From Planoprotostelium fungivorum (taxonomy: Eukaryota; Evosea; Variosea; Cavosteliida; Cavosteliaceae), in assembly GCA_003024175.1 (NCBI GenBank), contig MDYQ01000036.1, forward strand, positions 105,180 through 169,179: a DNA stretch of 64,000 nucleotides. Reading direction: 5' to 3'. Positions 18,155 through 64,000 of this stretch are shown piece after piece (the stretch's first letter is position 1; every line of letters starts with the position of its first letter). The notes beneath the pieces are model-generated. The model saw nothing but the letters and a program-made list of their open reading frames with translations. It was not told the origin of the DNA and made no database searches. The position numbers and the translations under genes were made by a program.

Positions 18155-18235
18155 GCAAGTTTAGTGAAGTGGTCAAACACGCTAGCTTCAGGTGCTAGTC
18201 CTTCGGGTTCGTGGGTTCGACTCCCACAGCTTGCA
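18155..18235 (+). tRNA. tRNA-Leu (anticodon CAG)
   Basis: The acceptor stem pairs GCAAGTT with AGCTTGC (one G-T pair), followed by discriminator A. The D arm has a GTG/CAC stem. The anticodon stem pairs CTAGC with GCTAG around loop TTCAGGT, anticodon CAG. A variable region of 12 bases follows, then the T arm GTGGG-TTCGACT-CCCAC, which holds the B box. No intron; CCA is not encoded. Short T runs follow (CTTCTTTTG), fitting pol III termination. Length 81 nt. Confidence 0.93.
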
Positions 18236-24112: not shown

Positions 24113-27100
24113 ATGTCCTTCTTAATCGGCACGAGTCGAGGGGACCAACCCAACAGTCCCTGGCAGGCTCTGAGAAGAGCTGCGATCGGTGAGTGTCCGA
24201 CGCGTTCAAAAGTGCAATTCGTGGTGGCTGATCATATGCGATAGCTCTGTTTCCTTTTTCGGGCGAGGGTAGACTCGAAGTCTCCCTTGAAGTTGGAGAT
24301 GAACTTCGAATCGAAGAGGAGGTGAGCGACAGACTCTCTCCTCTATATTGCTACCTCTTGTCGAGTCGAGTCGATCTCATATCTCACACATTCGGATCGT
24401 CCATCGATTTATGATTTCTGACACAACATTACAGACGGAAGGTTGGTTCAAGGGAATCAACTTGACAAAGAGTGGAAAGAGAGAAGGTCGAATCCACGGT
24501 GTCTTTCCAGCTGCATATGTAAAGTATGGCGATTCCCTCGAGACCTTGAAACTCGATCAACACGTTCTACTCGTGGAGGTGATCTTCCTCCATCTTCGAG
24601 ATGAAATGACTCACCATCTCTAGACACAAGCTTACCTGTCCGAGAGGGGCAAGTTACTCATGGAATATTTAGAGGTGAAACGAGTCCCCACCTCTCATCA
24701 TGCATCTGATGGACGTAGGATGGCGACATCGACAACTTTGTCCGTCTCAAAGACGAGATCCACAAAGTCATATCCATCAGAAAGCGCGTCATCAACAAAC
24801 AGCAGGTGAAGTCCATCGACTCTTACACCCTAAATGCGTCAGAACGAGCACTTGAGAATCGAATTACGCAATCTCCTCGGCAAGCCGAGCGGCCACGCAC
24901 CCATCAGCCCGAGGACTCCTCGGAGTGTCCGACGTAACAAATCATCCACAGGGAACGTTCAGCAGAACGACTCCCCGGCCGTGGAGTGTTCTCCATCACT
25001 GACGACAGATGCTATTCAGGTGAATCTGTGATTGAGTGTGGAGGATCTGAAGATATTCCAGGAAAAGGGAGGAGAAAAGGAAGAGAAGAAAGGAGAGGAG
25101 GAGACGGAAGAGAAGACTGTCGTTGTAGACAGAGAGCAGCGTAAATCGACGGACGACAAACAGAGGAGATCGAGTAGGGTGAGTCATCATCACATCATCT
25201 CGATGATGAGAAAATACGATTTTAATGTTCGTCTCATAATCGATCTACAACGTTGTAGTTGGACATGAAGAAGGCGAGACAATCGATCTACGGCGTCGCC
25301 GGTGGCGAAAATCCCGTCAGCACCTACAAATCCGTACGTATCCATCTACACCGTTGTAGATCGACTCACCCCCGCAGCTCATCGAGCTGAGAAATCGTCT
25401 CGCTCAGCAGATGAAGCCGAGAACTTCCACGGATAATTCACCCTTCGTGTCACCCATAACCTCCCCCGTTATCTCCCCCATCCAATCGCGCGGGAACACA
25501 CCCCCCTTGTCCCCCACCACTTCCAAGAACGATGTTACAGTTTCCCAGGGAACTTTCCGCGGAGGAAAATCTTCCGCCCCCCGCAAGGAGCTACTCAAGG
25601 GTGAGAATTTTCTCGGAAAAATTTCTGAAATTTCTATGAAAGGTCTGGCCTCCCCGCCTGGATCGCCCAAACAGGGTCACAACATGTTCAAAGGAAGTTT
25701 CAGACAATCTTCTGACATACCCATCAAATTGAAAGACAGGACCTATCATCTGATGGTTGAGATCGTCGTATTCATGTTCACGGTGAGAGATGAGGTTCGT
25801 TGTAGACGGATGAAATGACACGTTATAGACGGGTGATCCCACGGAGGTGGCTCTGTCGCTCTACAACGGAGAGACGAAGCGGTCGGTTACGGAAGAATTT
25901 GTAATCAAATTGACACCACAGGGCATGCCAGAGGATGCCTCTCGAATTGGAAAATTGAAATTCATATTCAAGGTAAGACCGTCGATCTACAACCCACCAC
26001 GTCCACTCGTTGTAGATGCACGGATATGTTTTGGCTCGTTGTAGATGACGGAAATCCAGGACATCAACGAGGGAGATCTCAACGGAAACGTCTTCTTGTT
26101 GGCGAGGATCAATCGTTTGGGCCGATTGATTCCAGGAAAAAAGAAGGAAAAGGGAGACAAAGATTTCAGGAGACCCTTCGGTGCCGCCGTACAGCAGCTC
26201 AACTTGAACGGTGAAATGTCGCGGAGATTTCGAAGAATTGACGGAACAATAGATCTCATGCCAAATCCTGAGGAAGATGAAGATGAAGGCCCGGAGGTGT
26301 CTTATAATTTGGCGATCTACACTGCAGAAGATGAGAATGACACGGCCATTTTGTGTGACGGTGAGATTCCGTCGAGATTTCATCATTTTGACTCGTTGTA
26401 GACATACCCAAGAGGAGAAACATCAAAGAATTATCTTCGGCCAAGGGTATCGCCACGAACGTCCAGGTGATCCGTCTACAACTTGCCACTCCCCCCTCCC
26501 CCCTCACTTTTTCTCAGATTCTCATCGGGTCGTTAGACCGACGTCCGACGGCCAAATCGATTCCCAAGATTTCCCGCCTTTTATTCCCGGAAACGGGTGC
26601 CATGGGTATCACAAGGAACGACTTGTACATCACTCTGGACTCTCTCAAGACAACACGCAGCTCTGAATCTCTACAACTCTCCCTCATCCTCCGCGATGCA
26701 GAGGGTAACGTGATTCCGGTGATCTTCTCGATTTATTTTCGTCTACAACGTTGTAGATTGACGGATATTCAGAATTGCATCGTGAACGGAGTGGACGCAC
26801 CGATCGTGTCAGAGTACACGTCGTGCGTTATTTTGAAGGAAGGTTGTCCCGTTTGGCGCGACGTTTTCAATTTGAAAGTCAAACCGGAGAAATTGAGCGG
26901 GGCTCACTGTTACTTCACGGTGAAGACGGTGCACGAGGCGACGAGTGGGTCACGTGATCTCGAAATTTCACTGACATTCCAACAGCGAAAGACAAAGAAT
27001 TTTGTTTCGGATATTTTCCGCTCACTACAACGGAGGGTAGTGTCATTGCAGATGCGGAGCACGTCGTGCAGGTGAATTTTGGCGGGAAAACGAGTGATGA

Positions 27101-30100
27101 CGTCATCAGTTGTACAATATTCCCAAGGACACCAATCTCTTCAGTGACACGAACATGTCGCTCGTACCGGCCAGCCTCTACCTGAAAGACAAAGAAGGTG
27201 GGTCGATCTACATCGTTGTAGATGCTCACCCTCTCAGATTTCAAGAACAACAGTAAATTGTTGAGAAAAGACGAGACACTGAAGATCCGAACGCAACTCA
27301 CTTCGACCAAACTGACCTCGAACGGTGAAATTCCACTGAAATTTCGTTTTCAACTGAAAGTTCTCAGTCTCCATGTATCAGATTCTCCACTGGAAAGAGA
27401 TGCCAAAGGCTTCGATTCCCGATATCCTCAATCGATTCACTTACATCCCTACCAACGAAGTACTGAAGGTGACGGATTGACCTTTCGTCGAATTCCAACC
27501 GAAATTTCTGCAGTTTTTCCAAGAGGCTTTCGATACCCTCTTCGCTATCATGGATTCCGACGCGGGTGAGCCGTTTTGGCGGGAAAATTTTCTCTGAACA
27601 GTCTCAGGCGTCGACCAGCTCGTCTACAACGCTCTCGTCTTCATGATCAATCTATTCGTTGACGACAAGAGCACTCTGGCCAGTCACCTGCGGGTGAGAG
27701 ATCTTCCGTATTTCCCCGAAATTTCACTGACATTTCCGCGTAGCCGGTATTAGATCGTTACGTGGGCGAACACTTCGTCGGAGTCAATGCTTACAAACCT
27801 CTCATGAAATCGATGAAAGAGTGTCTTCTACAAGCAGACAGCGCAGAGACAGCCACATCCATGTCCGCTTCCAAAATCAACGCCACGCTGAAGGTACAAT
27901 TTCGAGATCACATGATCGTTGTAGATGGCTGACGGCGGTAGGCCATGGAGCACCTTCTCCACTTTATCATCAAGAGTCGATTGCTGTACGCGTCGAAAGC
28001 TGATTCTCCCGCTGCACCCGACGAAGACGAAGCGTTCAGGAGAGAATTGGGGGAGGTTTTAATCTTTTTTAATTCGATCATGAAAATCTCCCGCCCTCAA
28101 TTCCGCGGGGCTCAGGCCATGGCGGTCAAGGTGACACGTCGACGTCGAAATTTCACTGAAATTTCACAGAGTTTCGGACAATTGTCGTCGCAGATTCGCA
28201 AGATTTTCTTCGGCCCCGATTTCGCCAACATCGTCAAGAGTTTCGTTGAATGCATTTCTCTGCAGACTCACGACTCTTCCCTCAAGCATTTCAACTCTGA
28301 GAAGCTACACTACATACGTAAGATCATCCAGTTGCCCTACAACGAGGAAGGTGCGAAATTTCCGCGAAATTTCATCGAGATTTCTCACGCACAGTAGAAT
28401 CGCAGACGATCGTCTTCACCATCATACCTACCGCTCTCATTCCTCACTTGAAATCTTCCGCGGAAGAAGAAAAGTCCGAAGCCGTTTCCATACTGCTCGA
28501 TCTCCTGCACAAACTCGAAAATGGCGCCAAGAGCCCCGCAGTCATCACGGCCGTTGTAGACGAGCTGACTAAGGTCTTCATCCTTTTGCTCAACCTGTTT
28601 AGCAACATGAAGGTGGGAGATATATTTGTCTTCTGGCTCATTGTAGAAGGAGGATCAAGCTAGAACGGATGTTCTCACGGTCTGTTATGCAGTCTTGGGC
28701 CTCATGTCCGAAGAGCAATTGATGAATTCGTGCAGAGTGGCCGACGGAATGGTGAGACGAATTTGTTAACCCCGCCGGACACCCCTGACCTCCGTACAGA
28801 ACAGCATCACGTACATCGTCAAGACCATGACACTGACCATCACCCAACCTCTATACGCAGAGACGTGGACGAAACTGATCATCTTCATGCATCAGACCGT
28901 TGTCGACGTGTCGACCAAACTATTCGCATTGTCCCAACAGGGGCCCACGCAAGCGAACCGACCGAGTGAGATCTCCACGAAATTTCCGCGACTTCTCGCT
29001 GACGTTTCAGTTACGAGACGTGGAACGATGGACCTGGAAGTCAGAAGCCGAACGTTAGGCCACGAGGCTGCCCGGCTCGAATTCTACCGCAACATCTTCC
29101 TCTTAGTCTCCGCCTTCTTGAACTCCAAATTACTCTTCACCATCTCGAACACCGAGCGCACACTCGATCTACAACGAGGCATCGCCGGCATCATGGAGCA
29201 GGTGTGGAACGCCATAGATCCCATCATGTCCCTCCGTTTCATCCCGCACGTCGTCCCTGTCTTCATGGACACACACTTGGTCCCCGATCAGCTCGTGAGG
29301 GAGATCGCCAACCGACTCTACTTCTCCGCTCTGTCTGCAGAGTTCACGTCTGCCGGGGATTTCAGTGTCATGGAAGCGAAGACGTTCGATGCGTTGAGGA
29401 AGATATCGGAAGAACAGAATCCGTTGTTTAACGAGGACTCCATATCCTTCTTCACGGACAGGTGACACAATCTCGATAGACATATCACATGTGATCTACA
29501 TCTACATACATATGTGGATCGTGTGATATATGTATTTATTTTTGTACATCTGATGTACGTGTGGGAGAAAAAAACTGACGGCTTGTAGTCTGGCGGCCAA
29601 GGTGGCGGCATTGGAGCCGTCGGAATTTCAGACCAAGGCCGGAAAATACGCGGAAGATCTCAAGTATTTCACCGGATTATTGTACGAGTTACGTACACTA
29701 CCCACGGGTACGACACGTGACGTTATAGACGTAGAACTCACTGAAATTTCAGGCGTGGCCTACGAGGACGATCGCACGGTTGCCAACCTCAAATTAGTCG
29801 ATTATTTGAGACAGACCAACCGCTCCGAAGGTGAATTCCACCCGAAATTTCCAGCCCGTTAAACCTTAAATCCAGCGTACCTCACCTTCATGCACTCCCT
29901 CGCGGAGACGCACGAAAAGGCGCGAAATTTCGTCGAGGCGGGTCAGGCCATCCTTCTCATCACCAAGTTGTACAATTGGTCCGACACCATCGTCCCCGAA
30001 ATTTCAAAATACTTTCCCGCCGAAACTTCTTACCGCAGAAAGGAGAAGCTCATCACAACTGCACACTCCCTCTTTACCAAGGGAAAAATGTGGGAAAAGT

Positions 30101-31490
30101 CGCTGGAACTATTGAAGGAGCTATCGGAGGAATACGAGACGAAGAGTTTCGAATACGAGAAATTGTCGGGAATATTGGAGATAAGAGGAGACCTACTGAA
30201 GAAGGTGGCGAGGGAGAACAGGTGTGTCGACGTCGACATTTCTTGGGAGATTCTCAGATTTTTCTCAGATTTTTCAACGAATATTTCAAGGTAGGCTTCT
30301 ACGGAACTGGCTTCGACAAACAACTGAGGGTGCGTGAAATCTCATCGAAATTTCCCATCCACAGAATTTCTCAAACGACATCACATACGACATCACCACT
30401 ACACAAGAAATATCCTCGAATATCCTGACACTTTTCCAGGGAAAGATCTACATCTACCGAGGCTTAGAGGCAGAGAGAAGAGAGGACTTTGTTGAGAGGA
30501 TGAAAGTTTTATTTCCAGACGCAGAGATTCTCAACTATTCAGAAGATCCCGGCCCGGAAATTTCCGAAATTTCGGGTCGGCACCTGCAGATCACCCCCGT
30601 TAAACCTTCATCTGTAGAAGAGAGGGACCACTTACCCTCCAAAATTCCCGCCAGAATGCCGGGGAGGATGAGAAAGTATTATCAGTACAACGACGTCAAC
30701 GTCTTTGTCTTCCAGAAGCCATTCAGAAAGACGAAGGAGAAATCGGGCAACGAGTTCAGAGACCTGTGGTTACGTAATACGTATTACGAAACGGAAGATA
30801 CGTTTCCCATGGTACAGAGGAGATCAATCATCGCGAGCCGATCCATCGTGGAGGTGGGAGATCGGAAGTTCCGATGTCAGATTGACATGTTTGACAGATT
30901 TCACCCCTGCAGACGGCGGTTCGAGCGATGCGGGATAAGAACGAAGAGTTGAAGGACCAGTTGGCTAAGAATGATAATCAGATTGTGGCGCCGGGCGCGC
31001 TGCAAGACTTCCTCATGGTGTTCAAGGTGAGCTCATTCGACTCATCGTCGTCTTCTTCTGCTCTCATCATCACCATCATCATCTCACGATCGGCTCTTGT
31101 CACGATCGCGATCGTGTATCCTCATCATCTGCATCACGATCGTGTATCCTCATCATCTGCATCACGATCGTGACATGGAACAGGGTGTTATCGACGCCGC
31201 CGTCAACGGAGGTACGGAGAGATACAAAGACGCCTTCTGCTGCTCTTCTTACCTCGACGAGAACCCACAAGATTCTCATCTGGTGGAATCTCTATTAGGA
31301 GAGATCGACTATCAGATGGAGTTCTTAGAGAAGGGAATGACCGTTCTAAAGAGAAAGGTGAGAGGGAGGGGGGAACGTGAAGATTGACACGAGACAGACC
31401 GAACCGGGCAGCGACATGATGAACCTCATCGGTCTGCTGGAAGAACAACTGGTATCGATGTCGGCCAAGGCATTGACAAAATCAACATAA
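24113..31490 (+). CDS. DOCK-family Rho GTPase GEF (SH3-DHR1-DHR2)
   Basis: The largest gene here, with several dozen exons and introns mostly 40-60 nt. ATG 24113 gives MSFLIGTSRGDQPNSPWQA, then an SH3 domain (ALFPFSGEG..LEVSLEVGDELRIEE, WFKGIN, GVFPAAYVK). The DHR-1/C2-like lipid-binding domain lies around 26.4-27.2 kb (NDLYITLDS, NCIVNGVDAPIVSEYTSCV, PVWRDVFNLKV). The catalytic DHR-2 lies around 29.6-31.4 kb: FMHSLAETHEKARNFVEAG, KWEKSLELLKEL-type text, FYGTGF, YNDVNVFVFQKPFRK, RRSIIASRSIVE, then GTERYKDAFC and the end near 31490. An N-terminal SH3 places it with the DOCK-A/B (DOCK180) group acting on Rac with an ELMO partner. Linker exons after the SH3 are Lys/Glu- and Ser-rich. No break seen. 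Confidence 0.9.
25245..27221 (+). repeat. Recurrent intronic palindrome CTACANCGTTGTAG (four sites)
   Basis: Within DOCK introns the 14-mer occurs at 25245-25258, 25346-25359, 26743-26756 and 27208-27221. Two further copies lie in introns of minus-strand genes at 34368-34381 and 63971-63984. Three are perfect palindromes (CTACAACGTTGTAG). At 25245 and 26743 its right half supplies the 3' splice site (TTGTAG then exon). Half-sites CGTTGTAG also end other introns, for example near 26044 and 26400. Confidence 0.8.
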
Positions 31491-31704
31491 AGAAATACTA
31501 CAGAGGGTGTTCCTCTGGAAAATTCTCCTCATCATCTCTCCTTTTCAACATATTTTAAAATTCTCCGCTCTCTACTTCTGTGTCTTTAACCATTATCCTA
31601 CTGAGTTTGCCGAACCACAGACGGTATCAGCTTGGATTATAAACGGAAAATGTAACATATATGCTGCTTTCGAACTCTCAGGCAGTCAGAAGAATCACCA
31701 CGTG

Positions 31705-31860
31705 ATGACACACTTCGAGAGAAGAATTGCCAGCATAGAGGATCAGATCTTGAAGCCAGGAAATTTGGAGAATCTGAGCACCACGTCGGATGCCATCTTC
31801 GATGTGTTGACCAATCTCATGATCTTGCACTCTGATCCAGCTGTTAGATATGCACCATAG
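31705..31860 (+). CDS. Short ORF, possibly a gene fragment
   Basis: MTHFERRIASIEDQILKPGN runs to ...ILHSDPAVRYAP, 51 residues, just after the DOCK gene and convergent with ankyrin copy B. The text looks like a real soluble helix pair. A longer open frame reaches back to 31507, but its upstream part is hydrophobic and unlike protein. No family recognised; it may be a remnant. Confidence 0.3.
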   Translation: MTHFERRIASIEDQILKPGNLENLSTTSDAIFDVLTNLMILHSDPAVRYAP

Positions 31861-31862
31861 AT

Positions 31863-33120
31863 GAGAAGGTCATCGGTTTATTCTCCAAGTGTCGACTTCT
31901 GTGCGACTGACTCCTTCAGCTCGTGATCGTCGAGCAGCTGCACCACCTTTGTATGTCCTCTTTCGGTCGCTGTTCTCTTGGCCTCATCAAACTGTGGCGA
32001 TACATCCACGCGAGGATCGGGCAACAGTAGCTCGACGACGCCAGCGTGGCCTCTTGCTGCTGATATGAGCACAAGCGGATTGCTGGAGAGATCGATTCGC
32101 TCGTCGGCCAGTAGCAGCCGCACAATTTGGACGAAGCCACCCTCACAATTTGGACGAAGCCACCCTCACATATTGTGCTGACAAATCCCCTCAAGGATCA
32201 GCCAAAAGGAGCTCTACCACTAGATGATGCCCTTTCGATGCCGCATACCCGATGGCTTCATTGTCTCTTGCTGATGGATCCACGCGAGAGTCGGACAAGA
32301 GCAGCTGTACGATCTCAGTGTGACCTCCAAAGGCTGCGTATCTGGTGGCCTCATTGTGTGGATGGATTCACACGAGGATTATTCAAGAGCAGCTGTACGA
32401 TGTCACTGAGACCCACTTCTGCTGCTTTTCTGATAGTATTATTGTCTGCCAGTGATGGATTCACACGAGAAGCAGACAAGAGCAGCTGTAGAGTCTCATT
32501 TTGTCCCTCTCAATGGACTGATAGTGAATTGCTGATGGATTCACACGAGGATCAGACAAGAGCAGCTGTAGAATCTCATTGCAGCCTTCATAGACTGCAC
32601 ATTCGATGGCCTGATTCTCTCGTGCTGATGGGTCCACTCGTGAGTCAGACAAGAGCAGCTGTAGGATGTCACTGTGACCCTCTGGCTGCACTTCTGATGG
32701 CTTTGTTGTCTCTTGCTGATGGGTCCACACGAGGATCATTCAAGAGTAGTCGCACCATCTCAGTCGAGTCTCTCTGCACTACGTTGATGAGTAGCTCATT
32801 GTCTTCACTGGATGGGTCGAGCTCATTGCGAGTTGACAGGAAGCGTAAGGACTCTATGTTGTCTCTCTCTACAGCCAAAAGCAGATCAAAGTTGGTCAGA
32901 CAGCCAGTGAAGCTGTCCACTGAGAGCATCAGAGGGGTCTATTACCACTGAGTAACTCAGTGCAGCCTCACCGATGTCTTTCCACAGCTTGCATGTCAGA
33001 CGAAGAATGGCAAACTGTCTTCTCGTTGTGTCGTCAGTTTCATCTCTTCCTCTGTACATTGCAAAAGTCCAAGACCACTTTCGTGATATCGTGGCTCGAA
33101 ATGATGCCGTTAGATATCAT
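31863..33120 (-). pseudogene. F-box-like/ankyrin repeat protein, decayed copy B
   Basis: Opens MISNGIISSHDITKVVLDF at 33120, then the frame shifts to QFAILRLTCKLWKDI (F-box-like), an intron, and VDSFTGCLTNFDLLLAVERD. Ankyrin units (EMVRLLLNDPRVDPSARDN; ILQLLLSDSRVDPSAREN; ILQLLLSDPRVNPSA) fall in different frames, broken near 32690, 32500 and 32140. A 23-nt tandem duplication at 32121-32166 breaks the frame again. The end is in frame and well kept: LLLADERIDLSSNPLVLISA, then HAGVVELLLPDPRVD and a last unit with KVVQLLDDHELKE. Relative to copy A the order of parts is the same. Confidence 0.75.
32121..32166 (-). repeat. 23-nt tandem duplication in ankyrin copy B
   Basis: CACAATTTGGACGAAGCCACCCT occurs twice in direct succession. 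As 23 is not a multiple of three, it shifts the ankyrin reading frame. Probably replication slippage. Confidence 0.85.
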
Positions 33121-33397
33121 CTGTCTCTGCTGAGACGAAAGATGTTGATGATCTGATCTTGCGCTCCAGATGTTGGCAGAATAAAAAAAATTGTTCTTAT
33201 TTTCTGCGGAAAAGACATAAGCCTGGATGGGGTATGAACGAGTGCTATGAGCACCTCTGAAATCGCCGTCAGATGACTCTTCACATCGACCCATCGGCCG
33301 AACCAAAGAGTCTCACCATCACCCATCCACCTTGAATCGGCCTGGTAAAGTTCGTGGGCTCAATAGAAAAGGTCGAGACGGATAGCTTTTATTCATC

Positions 33398-35377
33398 TCA
33401 CACCAAGTAACGTCTCTTGCTTCTCCTCTTATCAGATGGGAAGGCCAACAGGTAGATGAGAGTGACGAAGAAGAAGAGAAGGATGGCGAGGTAGTAGTAC
33501 CTCCAGAAGTATTTGATGTACTTCAGATTCTGCACACCGACGTTCATGATGACTGTGGCGTTTCAATCGAATGAGATCGGCGCGTTGTAGATCAATTCTC
33601 ACCGTCGATTGTAGTGTAACGACTGTACAGAGAGAAACTGAGAGAGCAGAACTGTAGGACACAAATGGTGGACGTCAGCAGGAGCATCGTATTGAACAAG
33701 AATGCGTTCATCATCGTGCCGTTCACCCTGCAGAGATTTCAGCGAAAATTCTCGAGTCACGTGACCTCACTTCATGGGGTGGATGGAGAAGAAGAGTGGA
33801 ATACGTAAACCGAATTTGAAATTTCCCTTGATCGTACATAGAAGGAGGTAGAAGGCGAAAATTCCATAAGCAGTCACACCCAACAGTCCCCACGCATCGT
33901 CTAATTCTGAGAAAAAGGTGAGAAATTTCTGAGAATGTTCCGTCTACAACTCACTGACGAACATCTGATTTAAAAATAAATTGAGAGGGGGACCGGTGAA
34001 CTGCGGTGCGTCGTAGACGATGATGTGGATGACCCACGCGATACTGACTCCCGCCCTTTTTGTGAATTCAATTTTTGAATCTCCGCGACGACTCACGAGA
34101 GGAAACTGAGGACCAATTGGATCCAACTCCACACGATGATGAGAATTTTGGGTCCGAGTCCCTTGTTGTACATCTTCTCCATCTTATCGTAATCGTCTTG
34201 TAGAAAGTACACCTCCTGTAGGTTACGTCAATCTACAACGGTTCATTTGTATCATCTCACCGTTTTGAAACGGTTGTAAGCCTTGCGATGTCTTCTCGTG
34301 GTAGGACGGGTGGATCCCTTCCTCTTGAACATGTCCATCAGCTTCTCTCCTACCTGAAGAATTTCATCTACAACGTTGTAGATGGAGCAAATTTACCTCC
34401 AATAGACGAGTCGACTCGTTACCGACGATGTTGCGTTGCTCGTAGTACCTGGTGGGGTCAGAAAATTCCTGGAAAAATTTCCCGCGCTCACACTTCGGCG
34501 GGGATGAAGCGGGGACGGTTCTTCCATGAGTGGAATAGGTCGAGGGGGAGGGCCGCGAGGCCGACGCCACCAAAGACGACAAAGAGGATGACTCCCATCA
34601 ATGTCAAGATGGAGATGCCATACAGGATGGGTGATACGATGAAGTTGAGTGTTGCCGTCGTGGAAGAAGGCTGTCGAGGGTTAAGAAGGTGATGGAGGGG
34701 AAGATGAATCACTTGGGTGATGACGGCATAGAACGGGATGTAAAGACATGCGGGTTGTGGAGTGCAGATGGAAGTGCTCTCGATGGTCGTCTTGACGTAG
34801 AGAGCCCGGAGGTGAGTGTATGGCACCTGAGACGAATCAATCAGGTGTGATTTGAATGTGCACAATACCTCTGCCTCTCCGATGAAAACCCACAAGACGG
34901 TCGTGAAGAGAACGTATAAGAAGAAAACGACCAGAGAGTATTTTAGACCTTCGGCAAACTTTTTTCCAAAACTGAAATGATTGTGAGATGGTCGCAAAGA
35001 GGAAGATGATCACCTGTCTTGACCCGGGTCTTCCGCTTCATAAAAGAAGATGGCGAACGGCAGGACGATGACGATCAGAACGACGGCCGCGATGAAAGCT
35101 GCTATCCACAGCCCGTTCATCGCGAGTCCGCCGTTCGTCCTTGCATTTGCCACGTCCAAAGGAAGGAGTAGAATCATGACAAAAGATAGAAACAGGCCCA
35201 AGACCTGGGGTGTCAATCGAACATGCGCGGGAAAAGATGTCTCACCACTAGCCCCTTCGGGAAGTATGCAGTGTTCTTGTCCGCCTCGTCTGAGAAGTAT
35301 ACGAGCACATATATGCAGGACGCCAGAATCACGAGACTCATCACAACGGCGATGACGATGAGAATGACGTTCACCAT
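33398..35377 (-). CDS. LMBR1-like (LIMR family) multipass membrane protein
   Basis: Nine-helix membrane protein of the LMBR1/LIMR family, closest in pattern to the plant LMBR1-like protein At3g08930. ATG 35377 starts [20 protein letters not shown], with YFPKG and a [11 protein letters not shown] motif soon after, then [20 protein letters not shown] followed by FFYEAED. Later come [20 protein letters not shown], a charged cytoplasmic loop ([20 protein letters not shown]), [40 protein letters not shown] and FALLFLVTL-type helices, ending KRRYLV at 33398. At least ten exons with introns carrying GAAATTTC motifs. About 510 residues, near the plant protein's length. Animal relatives act as lipocalin receptors or in lysosomal cobalamin export; the role here is unknown. 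Confidence 0.87.
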
Positions 35378-63717: not shown

Positions 63718-64000
63718 TCAATCCGTGATGTCAACGATCTCATCTGCATCCAGTCAGCCCGGAGAAGAAGAGAGGGAGAGGCTCACCTTCGCTGGCGTCA
63801 AAAGGGGTATCTTCTATCTCCTCCTCTTCCTCTTCCACAAAGGTGATCGGTGCGGTGCTCCTCCTCCTTCTAGAATTGATGGACGTGCTCTTCGTGACTT
63901 CCTCGACCACTTCGTCTCCTTCAAAGTCGCTGTCCTCCGATTTCACCTTCCTCTCCTGAGCCGAGTCAATCTACACCGTTGTAGACGCGTCGCTCACTCT
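63718..64000 (-). CDS. Acidic protein, 3' end (gene continues beyond window)
   Basis: The last two exons of a minus-strand gene. An intron with the palindrome CTACACCGTTGTAG and a CTCGGCTCAG acceptor leads to ERKVKSEDSDFEGDEVVEEV, RRRRSTAPITFVEEEEEEIE and DTPFDASE; a final intron (63733 to about 63784) joins DEIVDITD and TGA at 63718. Acidic with a basic patch, like many nuclear proteins. The rest lies past 64000, so the family cannot be judged. Confidence 0.6.

Follow-up and report, generated by a model that had tools for sequence, protein, structure and literature searches.

Dimeric transcription factors of the bZIP (ACGT core) and bHLH types usually act at sites between genes or near gene starts, and the control of gene bodies is usually ascribed to histone marks and to the polymerase itself. 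Marks of the gene body are known in the form of CpG methylation in plants and animals and of the PATC sequences in nematode introns. Among repeated DNA, some introner families bear terminal inverted repeats (available part of PMC9860276), and the highly iterated palindrome HIP1 (GCGATCGC) of cyanobacteria is tied to matching DNA methyltransferases (available part of PMC4390886). Here, we describe a 14-nt palindrome, CTACANCGTTGTAG, which recurs in genes of Planoprotostelium fungivorum. We analyzed a 64,000-nt stretch of contig MDYQ01000036.1 (positions 105,180 to 169,179, forward strand; hereafter the window) and the assembly to which it belongs (GCA_003024175.1). Based on computation on predicted genes, we consider the chances slightly better than even that the palindrome is a gene-body DNA element in its two-half form, recognized by a putative, probably homodimeric, sequence-specific protein. 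This reading draws on the presence of the word in both orientations, its excess in exons beyond codon choice, its rarity between genes and near gene starts, its rise with depth inside genes and the lack of co-variation between its arms.

Within the window, CTACANCGTTGTAG is found at 25245, 25346, 26743, 27208, 34368 and 63971, the six positions given by an earlier sequence-only reading of this DNA, and its recurrence is far above chance. When up to two mismatches were allowed, 15 match rows were obtained on both strands, as compared to a mean of 0.52 in shuffled sequence (0/100 shuffles reached 15). The sites sit in genes of both strands, as that reading had also proposed: four in a DOCK-family gene (+), one in an LMBR1-like gene (-) and one in a partial gene (-) at the window edge. 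We then scanned the assembly (36.86 Mb, 471 contigs), using the reversed word as control. The scan revealed 1,160 forward and 1,195 reverse matches to CTACANCGTTGTAG (control 1 and 0); with up to one mismatch allowed, the perfect palindrome CTACAACGTTGTAG was matched at 1,728 places (control 19). The 18-mer was absent from the viral contigs searched. Contig C1 contains no exact CTACANCGTTGTAG between 1 and 144460 among the matches listed, and many in the next 200 kb; in a 5-kb sample of the empty part (60001-65000), genes and introns are similar, the G+C content is lower (44%) and half-sites are absent.

The palindrome is built from a half-site, CGTTGTAGAT, with weaker flanks, gCTCGTTGTAGATGgA, two copies of which overlap at a central NCGN to give ATCTACA-NCGN-TGTAGAT. 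The A-T flank after CGTTGTAG is common to both orientations, in introns as well as in exons, and the upstream CT flank is clear in three of the four groups defined by orientation and compartment, being weak in the 17 antisense copies in introns. The pattern ATCTACAN{0,30}TGTAGAT matched at 1,027 places of the assembly (control 3); among the first 50 listed, the spacer measured 4 nt in 43, with CG at the center in 35 of these 43. Changes confined to one arm at arm position 3 were seen at 67 places (control 9), as compared to the 1,728 places within one mismatch. The word thus combines the dyad symmetry, fixed spacing and sequence-constrained arms of a homodimer site. Non-overlapping half-site pairs no more than 30 nt apart are less numerous than the overlapping palindrome, with 80 inverted, 18 everted and 312 direct pairs in the assembly (controls 0, 0 and 11). 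A 1-nt spacer separates 11 among 50 listed inverted pairs, and 57 among 100 listed direct pairs have a period of 20-24 bp, a share that is inflated because tandem arrays and apparent coding repeats are included. Short tandem arrays with a half-site in each 17-23 bp unit lie at C8:38995-39104, C47:133391-133503, C49:132864-132961 and C40:42766-42842.

To assign the word to gene compartments, we used a small self-trained gene finder, with the window and 200 kb of contig C1 as training sequence (264 kb in all). The C1 segment (C1:140001-340000) was chosen because CTACANCGTTGTAG matches were listed there, and the sample is therefore non-random. The resulting models comprise 140 genes, whose 883 introns measure 44 nt at the median; only one of the 140 spliced models has an internal stop, and exons, introns and unassigned DNA account for 163, 46 and 54 kb. 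Masking the motif during decoding, as a test of circularity, left 29/30 intronic palindromes intronic and 877/883 introns identical. All six window sites fall into predicted introns. The claim that the word is always intronic thus holds for the window and fails beyond it: when either inner base may vary, the 264-kb sample contains 36 palindromes, of which 30 were labelled intron, 5 exon and 1 intergenic (binomial p ~1e-17 against the 17.5% intron share of the DNA). By eye, two of the six non-intronic cases (C1:146512 and C1:201901) resemble introns missed by the model, three represent a single repeated coding motif with one mismatch in the arm core, and C1:155225 is a perfect palindrome within apparent coding sequence. 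Palindromes cluster by gene, with 17 same-gene pairs as compared to 5.0 expected (p 0.001), and sites cluster within about 1.5 kb of one another, their distances having no clear period.

The half-site is unequally distributed across the compartments and reaches 2.50 copies per kb in introns, 0.40 in exons and 0.11 in intergenic DNA. Both orientations are represented, with 77 sense and 39 antisense copies in introns and 16 sense and 49 antisense copies in exons. In 122 coding sequences, the half-site exceeded synonymous shuffles for CTACAACG (49 vs 11.8) as well as for CGTTGTAG (16 vs 0.8), half-site words headed the list of exon 8-mers, and CTACAAC occurred in all three reading frames (22, 14 and 48).

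We further related the half-site to intron depth, measured for 881 introns as distance from the start codon and from both gene ends. Half-sites were carried by 0/78 introns located less than 150 nt from the start codon, by 1% of 95 introns at 150-300 nt and by 27% of 84 introns at 1.5-2 kb. Counted from both ends, the share was 26% at 750-1000 nt, 30% at 1000-1500 nt and 21% beyond 1500 nt (n = 90, 103 and 67). First introns contained the half-site in 2 cases vs 15.9 expected, and in genes of at least 1.5 kb the density of exonic half-sites, 0.14 per kb nearest the 5' end, climbed to about 1.1 per kb farther away from it. The start-side effect persisted when labels were shuffled within genes (0/2,000 shuffles as low), as did the greater mean depth. 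When 285 deep introns were compared to 394 shallow ones, all words at p <1e-5 belonged either to the half-site/palindrome word or to a second palindrome, GAAATTTC, which was present in 32/285 deep vs 4/394 shallow introns and thus behaves similarly to the half-site with respect to depth. C1 alone showed the same direction as the window (7/234 shallow vs 58/201 deep introns).

Several observations weigh against a DNA element of gene bodies. The gene models span 0.7% of the assembly, in regions already known to carry the word, and the window taken alone gave a weak contrast (4/66 shallow vs 10/59 deep introns). The half-site share falls to 8.7% of the 69 introns more than 3 kb from the start codon, exon half-sites in genes of at least 1.5 kb have no trend from the 3' end, and within-gene shuffles revealed no separate 3'-end effect of the half-site (p 0.29). 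Depth tests on the palindrome by itself were borderline or non-significant (p 0.051 and 0.18). The synonymous-shuffle control is imperfect, because purine-rich words of the GAAGAAG type and CATCATC likewise exceed the shuffles in exons. Finally, the non-palindromic half-sites of introns, which outnumber the palindromes, are biased toward the sense strand (53 sense, 17 antisense), and acceptor use accounts for only part of this bias.

The relevant features of the window are the following:

24411..31490, + strand: DOCK-family gene with 34 predicted exons and 33 introns (self-trained model; part of the predicted protein matches Pfam DOCK-C2 and TPR_DOCK)
25245..25258, no strand: perfect palindrome CTACAACGTTGTAG, whose right half terminates intron 25179-25258 (word search and gene model)
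25346..25359, no strand: palindrome variant CTACACCGTTGTAG within intron 25334-25377 (word search and gene model)
25626..30573, no strand: zone of the second palindrome, GAAATTTC, in 11 of the 33 introns of the DOCK-family gene
25798..25805, + strand: half-site CGTTGTAG within intron 25783-25828
25861..25868, - strand: half-site in a predicted exon (CTACAACG as read on the + strand)
26037..26044, + strand: half-site CGTTGTAG as 3' end of intron 25973-26044
26394..26401, + strand: half-site CGTTGTAG as 3' end of intron 26361-26401, preceded by TTGAC
26743..26756, no strand: perfect palindrome within intron 26710-26772 (word search and gene model)
27208..27221, no strand: palindrome variant CTACATCGTTGTAG within intron 27198-27237 (word search and gene model)
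27917..27924, + strand: half-site CGTTGTAG within intron 27894-27941
33398..35377, - strand: gene for an LMBR1-like membrane protein, with one palindrome and three more half-site introns (Pfam LMBR1)
34368..34381, no strand: perfect palindrome within intron 34354-34396 of the LMBR1-like (-) gene (word search and gene model)
63971..63984, no strand: palindrome variant CTACACCGTTGTAG in predicted intron 63956-63997 of the partial (-) gene at the window edge

Besides its four palindromes, the DOCK-family gene harbors many half-sites in introns and exons alike, including further exonic copies at 27025, 27624, 28337 and 29169, and intron 25973-26044 also carries CGTTGTAG at 26008 and CTACAAC at 25987. 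The position of the palindrome within its intron varies, from directly after the 5' splice site through to the last base. The proposal that its right half forms the 3' splice site applies to the site at 25245, that is to one of six window sites, and to 4/30 intronic palindromes of the 264-kb sample. The related claim that half-sites end further introns was borne out, with CGTTGTAG being the last 8 nt of 21/883 introns and the most frequent final 8-mer.

Could the word be an RNA splicing element, in which the sense half-site (U)CGUUGUAG/AU (the slash marking the splice position) is a strong acceptor or intronic enhancer for cap-distal introns, and the palindrome and antisense copies are by-products? 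The lead of CGTTGTAG among intron ends, where it is frequently found as TGACTCGTTGTAG, the 553 assembly matches of TGACTCGTTGTAGAT (control 0), the sense bias of 53 vs 17 and the depletion in first introns (2 vs 15.9) all speak for it. The exon base after introns ending in CGTTGTAG was A in 20/21 cases, as compared to 41% after other TAG introns (93, TTGTAG ends excluded) and 34% after CAG introns (662). In introns of the window and C1, the branch-like words CTGAC, CTCAC and CTGAT mostly end 8-11 nt upstream of the 3' splice site. Of 53 non-palindromic sense half-sites in introns, 17 terminate the intron and the others lie at many distances from its end; a branch-like word precedes 10 further sense copies, nine of which are separated from the chosen intron end by a multiple of three nucleotides and may thus be acceptors too. 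In contrast, the word extends past the splice site into the exon, introns are enriched for antisense copies as well, and deep introns are much like shallow ones in donor score, CAG share and branch-motif share. Whereas a sense-strand signal should come in one orientation and be confined to introns, both orientations are present in introns and exons. With CGTTGTAG as the most frequent intron end, the earlier suggestion of a splicing signal receives partial support, and we regard a splicing element as a rather unlikely account of the word as a whole.

A second RNA-level possibility is a hairpin with a 4-nt loop that draws the splice sites together or, as the sequence-only reading had it, presents the acceptor. 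The spacer, fixed at 4 nt in 43 of the 50 places listed, would suit such a structure, and the palindromic introns fold better than their shuffles (mean z -1.38, n = 29), which they do because any palindrome must. In introns without these words, folding hardly exceeded that of shuffles (mean z -0.08, n = 616; t-test p 0.046, KS p 0.40). Double changes at arm position 3 occurred at 98 places (control 19), yet among 50 listed only 12 were compensatory, as compared to 16.7 expected if the arms varied independently. Arm position 4 was uninformative, because most of the 43 places retrieved represent an unrelated repeated word, CTAAAGCGATTTAG, which is present on many contigs with some copies near contig ends (e.g. 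C95:152 and C398:428). Inverted repeats with a 6-bp stem were in excess in introns at spacers of 0, 2, 4, 6 and 8 nt (63, 46, 51, 50 and 25 vs 11-16 in shuffles), driven largely by the word families under study, and showed no excess at spacers of 1, 3, 5, 7 and 9 nt (22, 19, 13, 17 and 13 vs 12-17). Read on the transcript strand, the bases that flank TCTACA....TGTAGA (n = 29) were A..T in 11, G..T in 7, A..C in 5, G..C in 2 and others in 4 cases, A-C (5/29) being about as common as G-U (7/29). Rfam searches of the window at gathering thresholds returned tRNA as the sole match, and the palindrome matched no known RNA family; a tRNA-Leu gene with anticodon CAG is located at 18155-18235. Since the arms lack compensatory change, an RNA stem is improbable. 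The palindrome is probably not one, and we attach very little probability to a hairpin that organizes the splice sites.

The idea that the word is the footprint of an intron-spreading, introner-like element found some resonance in the 80 inverted half-site pairs 0-30 nt apart (control 0), given that terminal inverted repeats occur in some introner families (available part of PMC9860276). However, the motif introns are of ordinary length (median 44 nt), have nothing in common beyond the word, carry it at variable positions and do not resemble one another as whole introns across genes; moreover, the word is enriched in exons, and its frequency does not correlate with intron density (rho 0.12, p 0.21). 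Because these introns are normal in length and lack other common sequence, an introner origin is improbable. They are probably not introners, and a spreading element would come as a great surprise.

We also considered an iterated word that is upheld by DNA maintenance or self-marking, as proposed for HIP1 in cyanobacteria, and that has no local job in the genes carrying it. The very large number of copies of a single invariant word fits this proposal, as does its uneven spread, exemplified by the lack of listed exact palindromes on C1 before position 144461. Dependence on depth and rarity between genes, on the other hand, are unexpected of a general DNA process and disfavor it, making this explanation improbable in our view. 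A reading as methylated CpG of gene bodies was rejected, as CpG is not depleted deep in genes: the observed/expected ratio there is 0.97 in exons and 1.10 in introns, and near gene ends 0.86 and 0.88, respectively.

Under the preferred reading of a protein-bound DNA element, the half-site would act as double-stranded DNA. The palindrome would be mostly intronic because coding sequence seldom tolerates it, and the sense half-site, which carries TAG, could serve as a 3' splice site where it is located behind a branch point. Judging from the distribution, the putative bound protein might act on the chromatin of gene bodies or on the way polymerase passes through long genes. It could, for example, suppress internal initiation, a guess that would explain the exclusion of the site from gene starts.

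As a tentative extension, which we consider possible though short of probable, long genes may bear an intragenic DNA code of at least two palindromic words (CTACAACGTTGTAG, GAAATTTC and perhaps more), each with a putative dedicated dimeric protein. Such words would be kept off promoters and starts and would lie mainly in introns, since no coding constraint applies there. A fixed order of the two deep words is not claimed, because the DOCK gene dominates the pairs (GAAATTTC downstream in 120/178). Other palindromes concentrated in introns are TGACGTCA (57/11/3 in introns, exons and intergenic DNA), TCACGTGA (23/5/5) and ATCATGAT (22/2/4); TGACGTCA and TCACGTGA had no significant within-gene depth effect. 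In exons, the words GGCGGGAA/TTCCCGCC are more frequent than in synonymous shuffles, in either orientation, and they are rare between genes; TTCCCGCC resembles an E2F site.

If the intragenic code is real, tiny introns would be landing pads for gene-body chromatin or elongation factors. Binding of the word by a protein would offer a direct handle on how internal initiation and other faults are kept out of long genes. It would also explain in concrete terms why very short introns might be kept, namely to hold DNA sites that coding sequence hardly accommodates. To our knowledge, no class of sequence-specific sites that mark gene interiors and keep away from gene starts has been described in eukaryotes. 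The 14-mer was not found in the literature searched, a collection with few subscription papers, and the listings of searches for intragenic or intronic palindromic motifs and for gene-body factors contained no match.

The word is best placed by comparison with known systems. It shares dyad symmetry, fixed spacing, constrained arms and use of both orientations with bZIP and bHLH sites; unlike these, it is rare between genes and near starts, and its arms are more constant than an ACGT core. As with gene-body CpG methylation and PATC sequences, we see a DNA-level signature of the gene interior that avoids starts and is stronger in longer genes, here as a discrete word with palindromic symmetry, in place of a base modification or of periodic A/T runs. 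Introner elements, as far as the available part of PMC9860276 describes them, are likewise intronic repeats spread across many genes, with inverted ends in some families, whereas only ~14-24 bp are common to the present introns, which have normal lengths, and the word also occurs in exons. Like HIP1, which the available part of PMC4390886 presents as a short palindrome with very many genome copies and no settled function, the word is short, palindromic and highly repeated; HIP1, however, is bacterial, whereas the word described here belongs to a eukaryote, favors introns and varies with depth inside genes.

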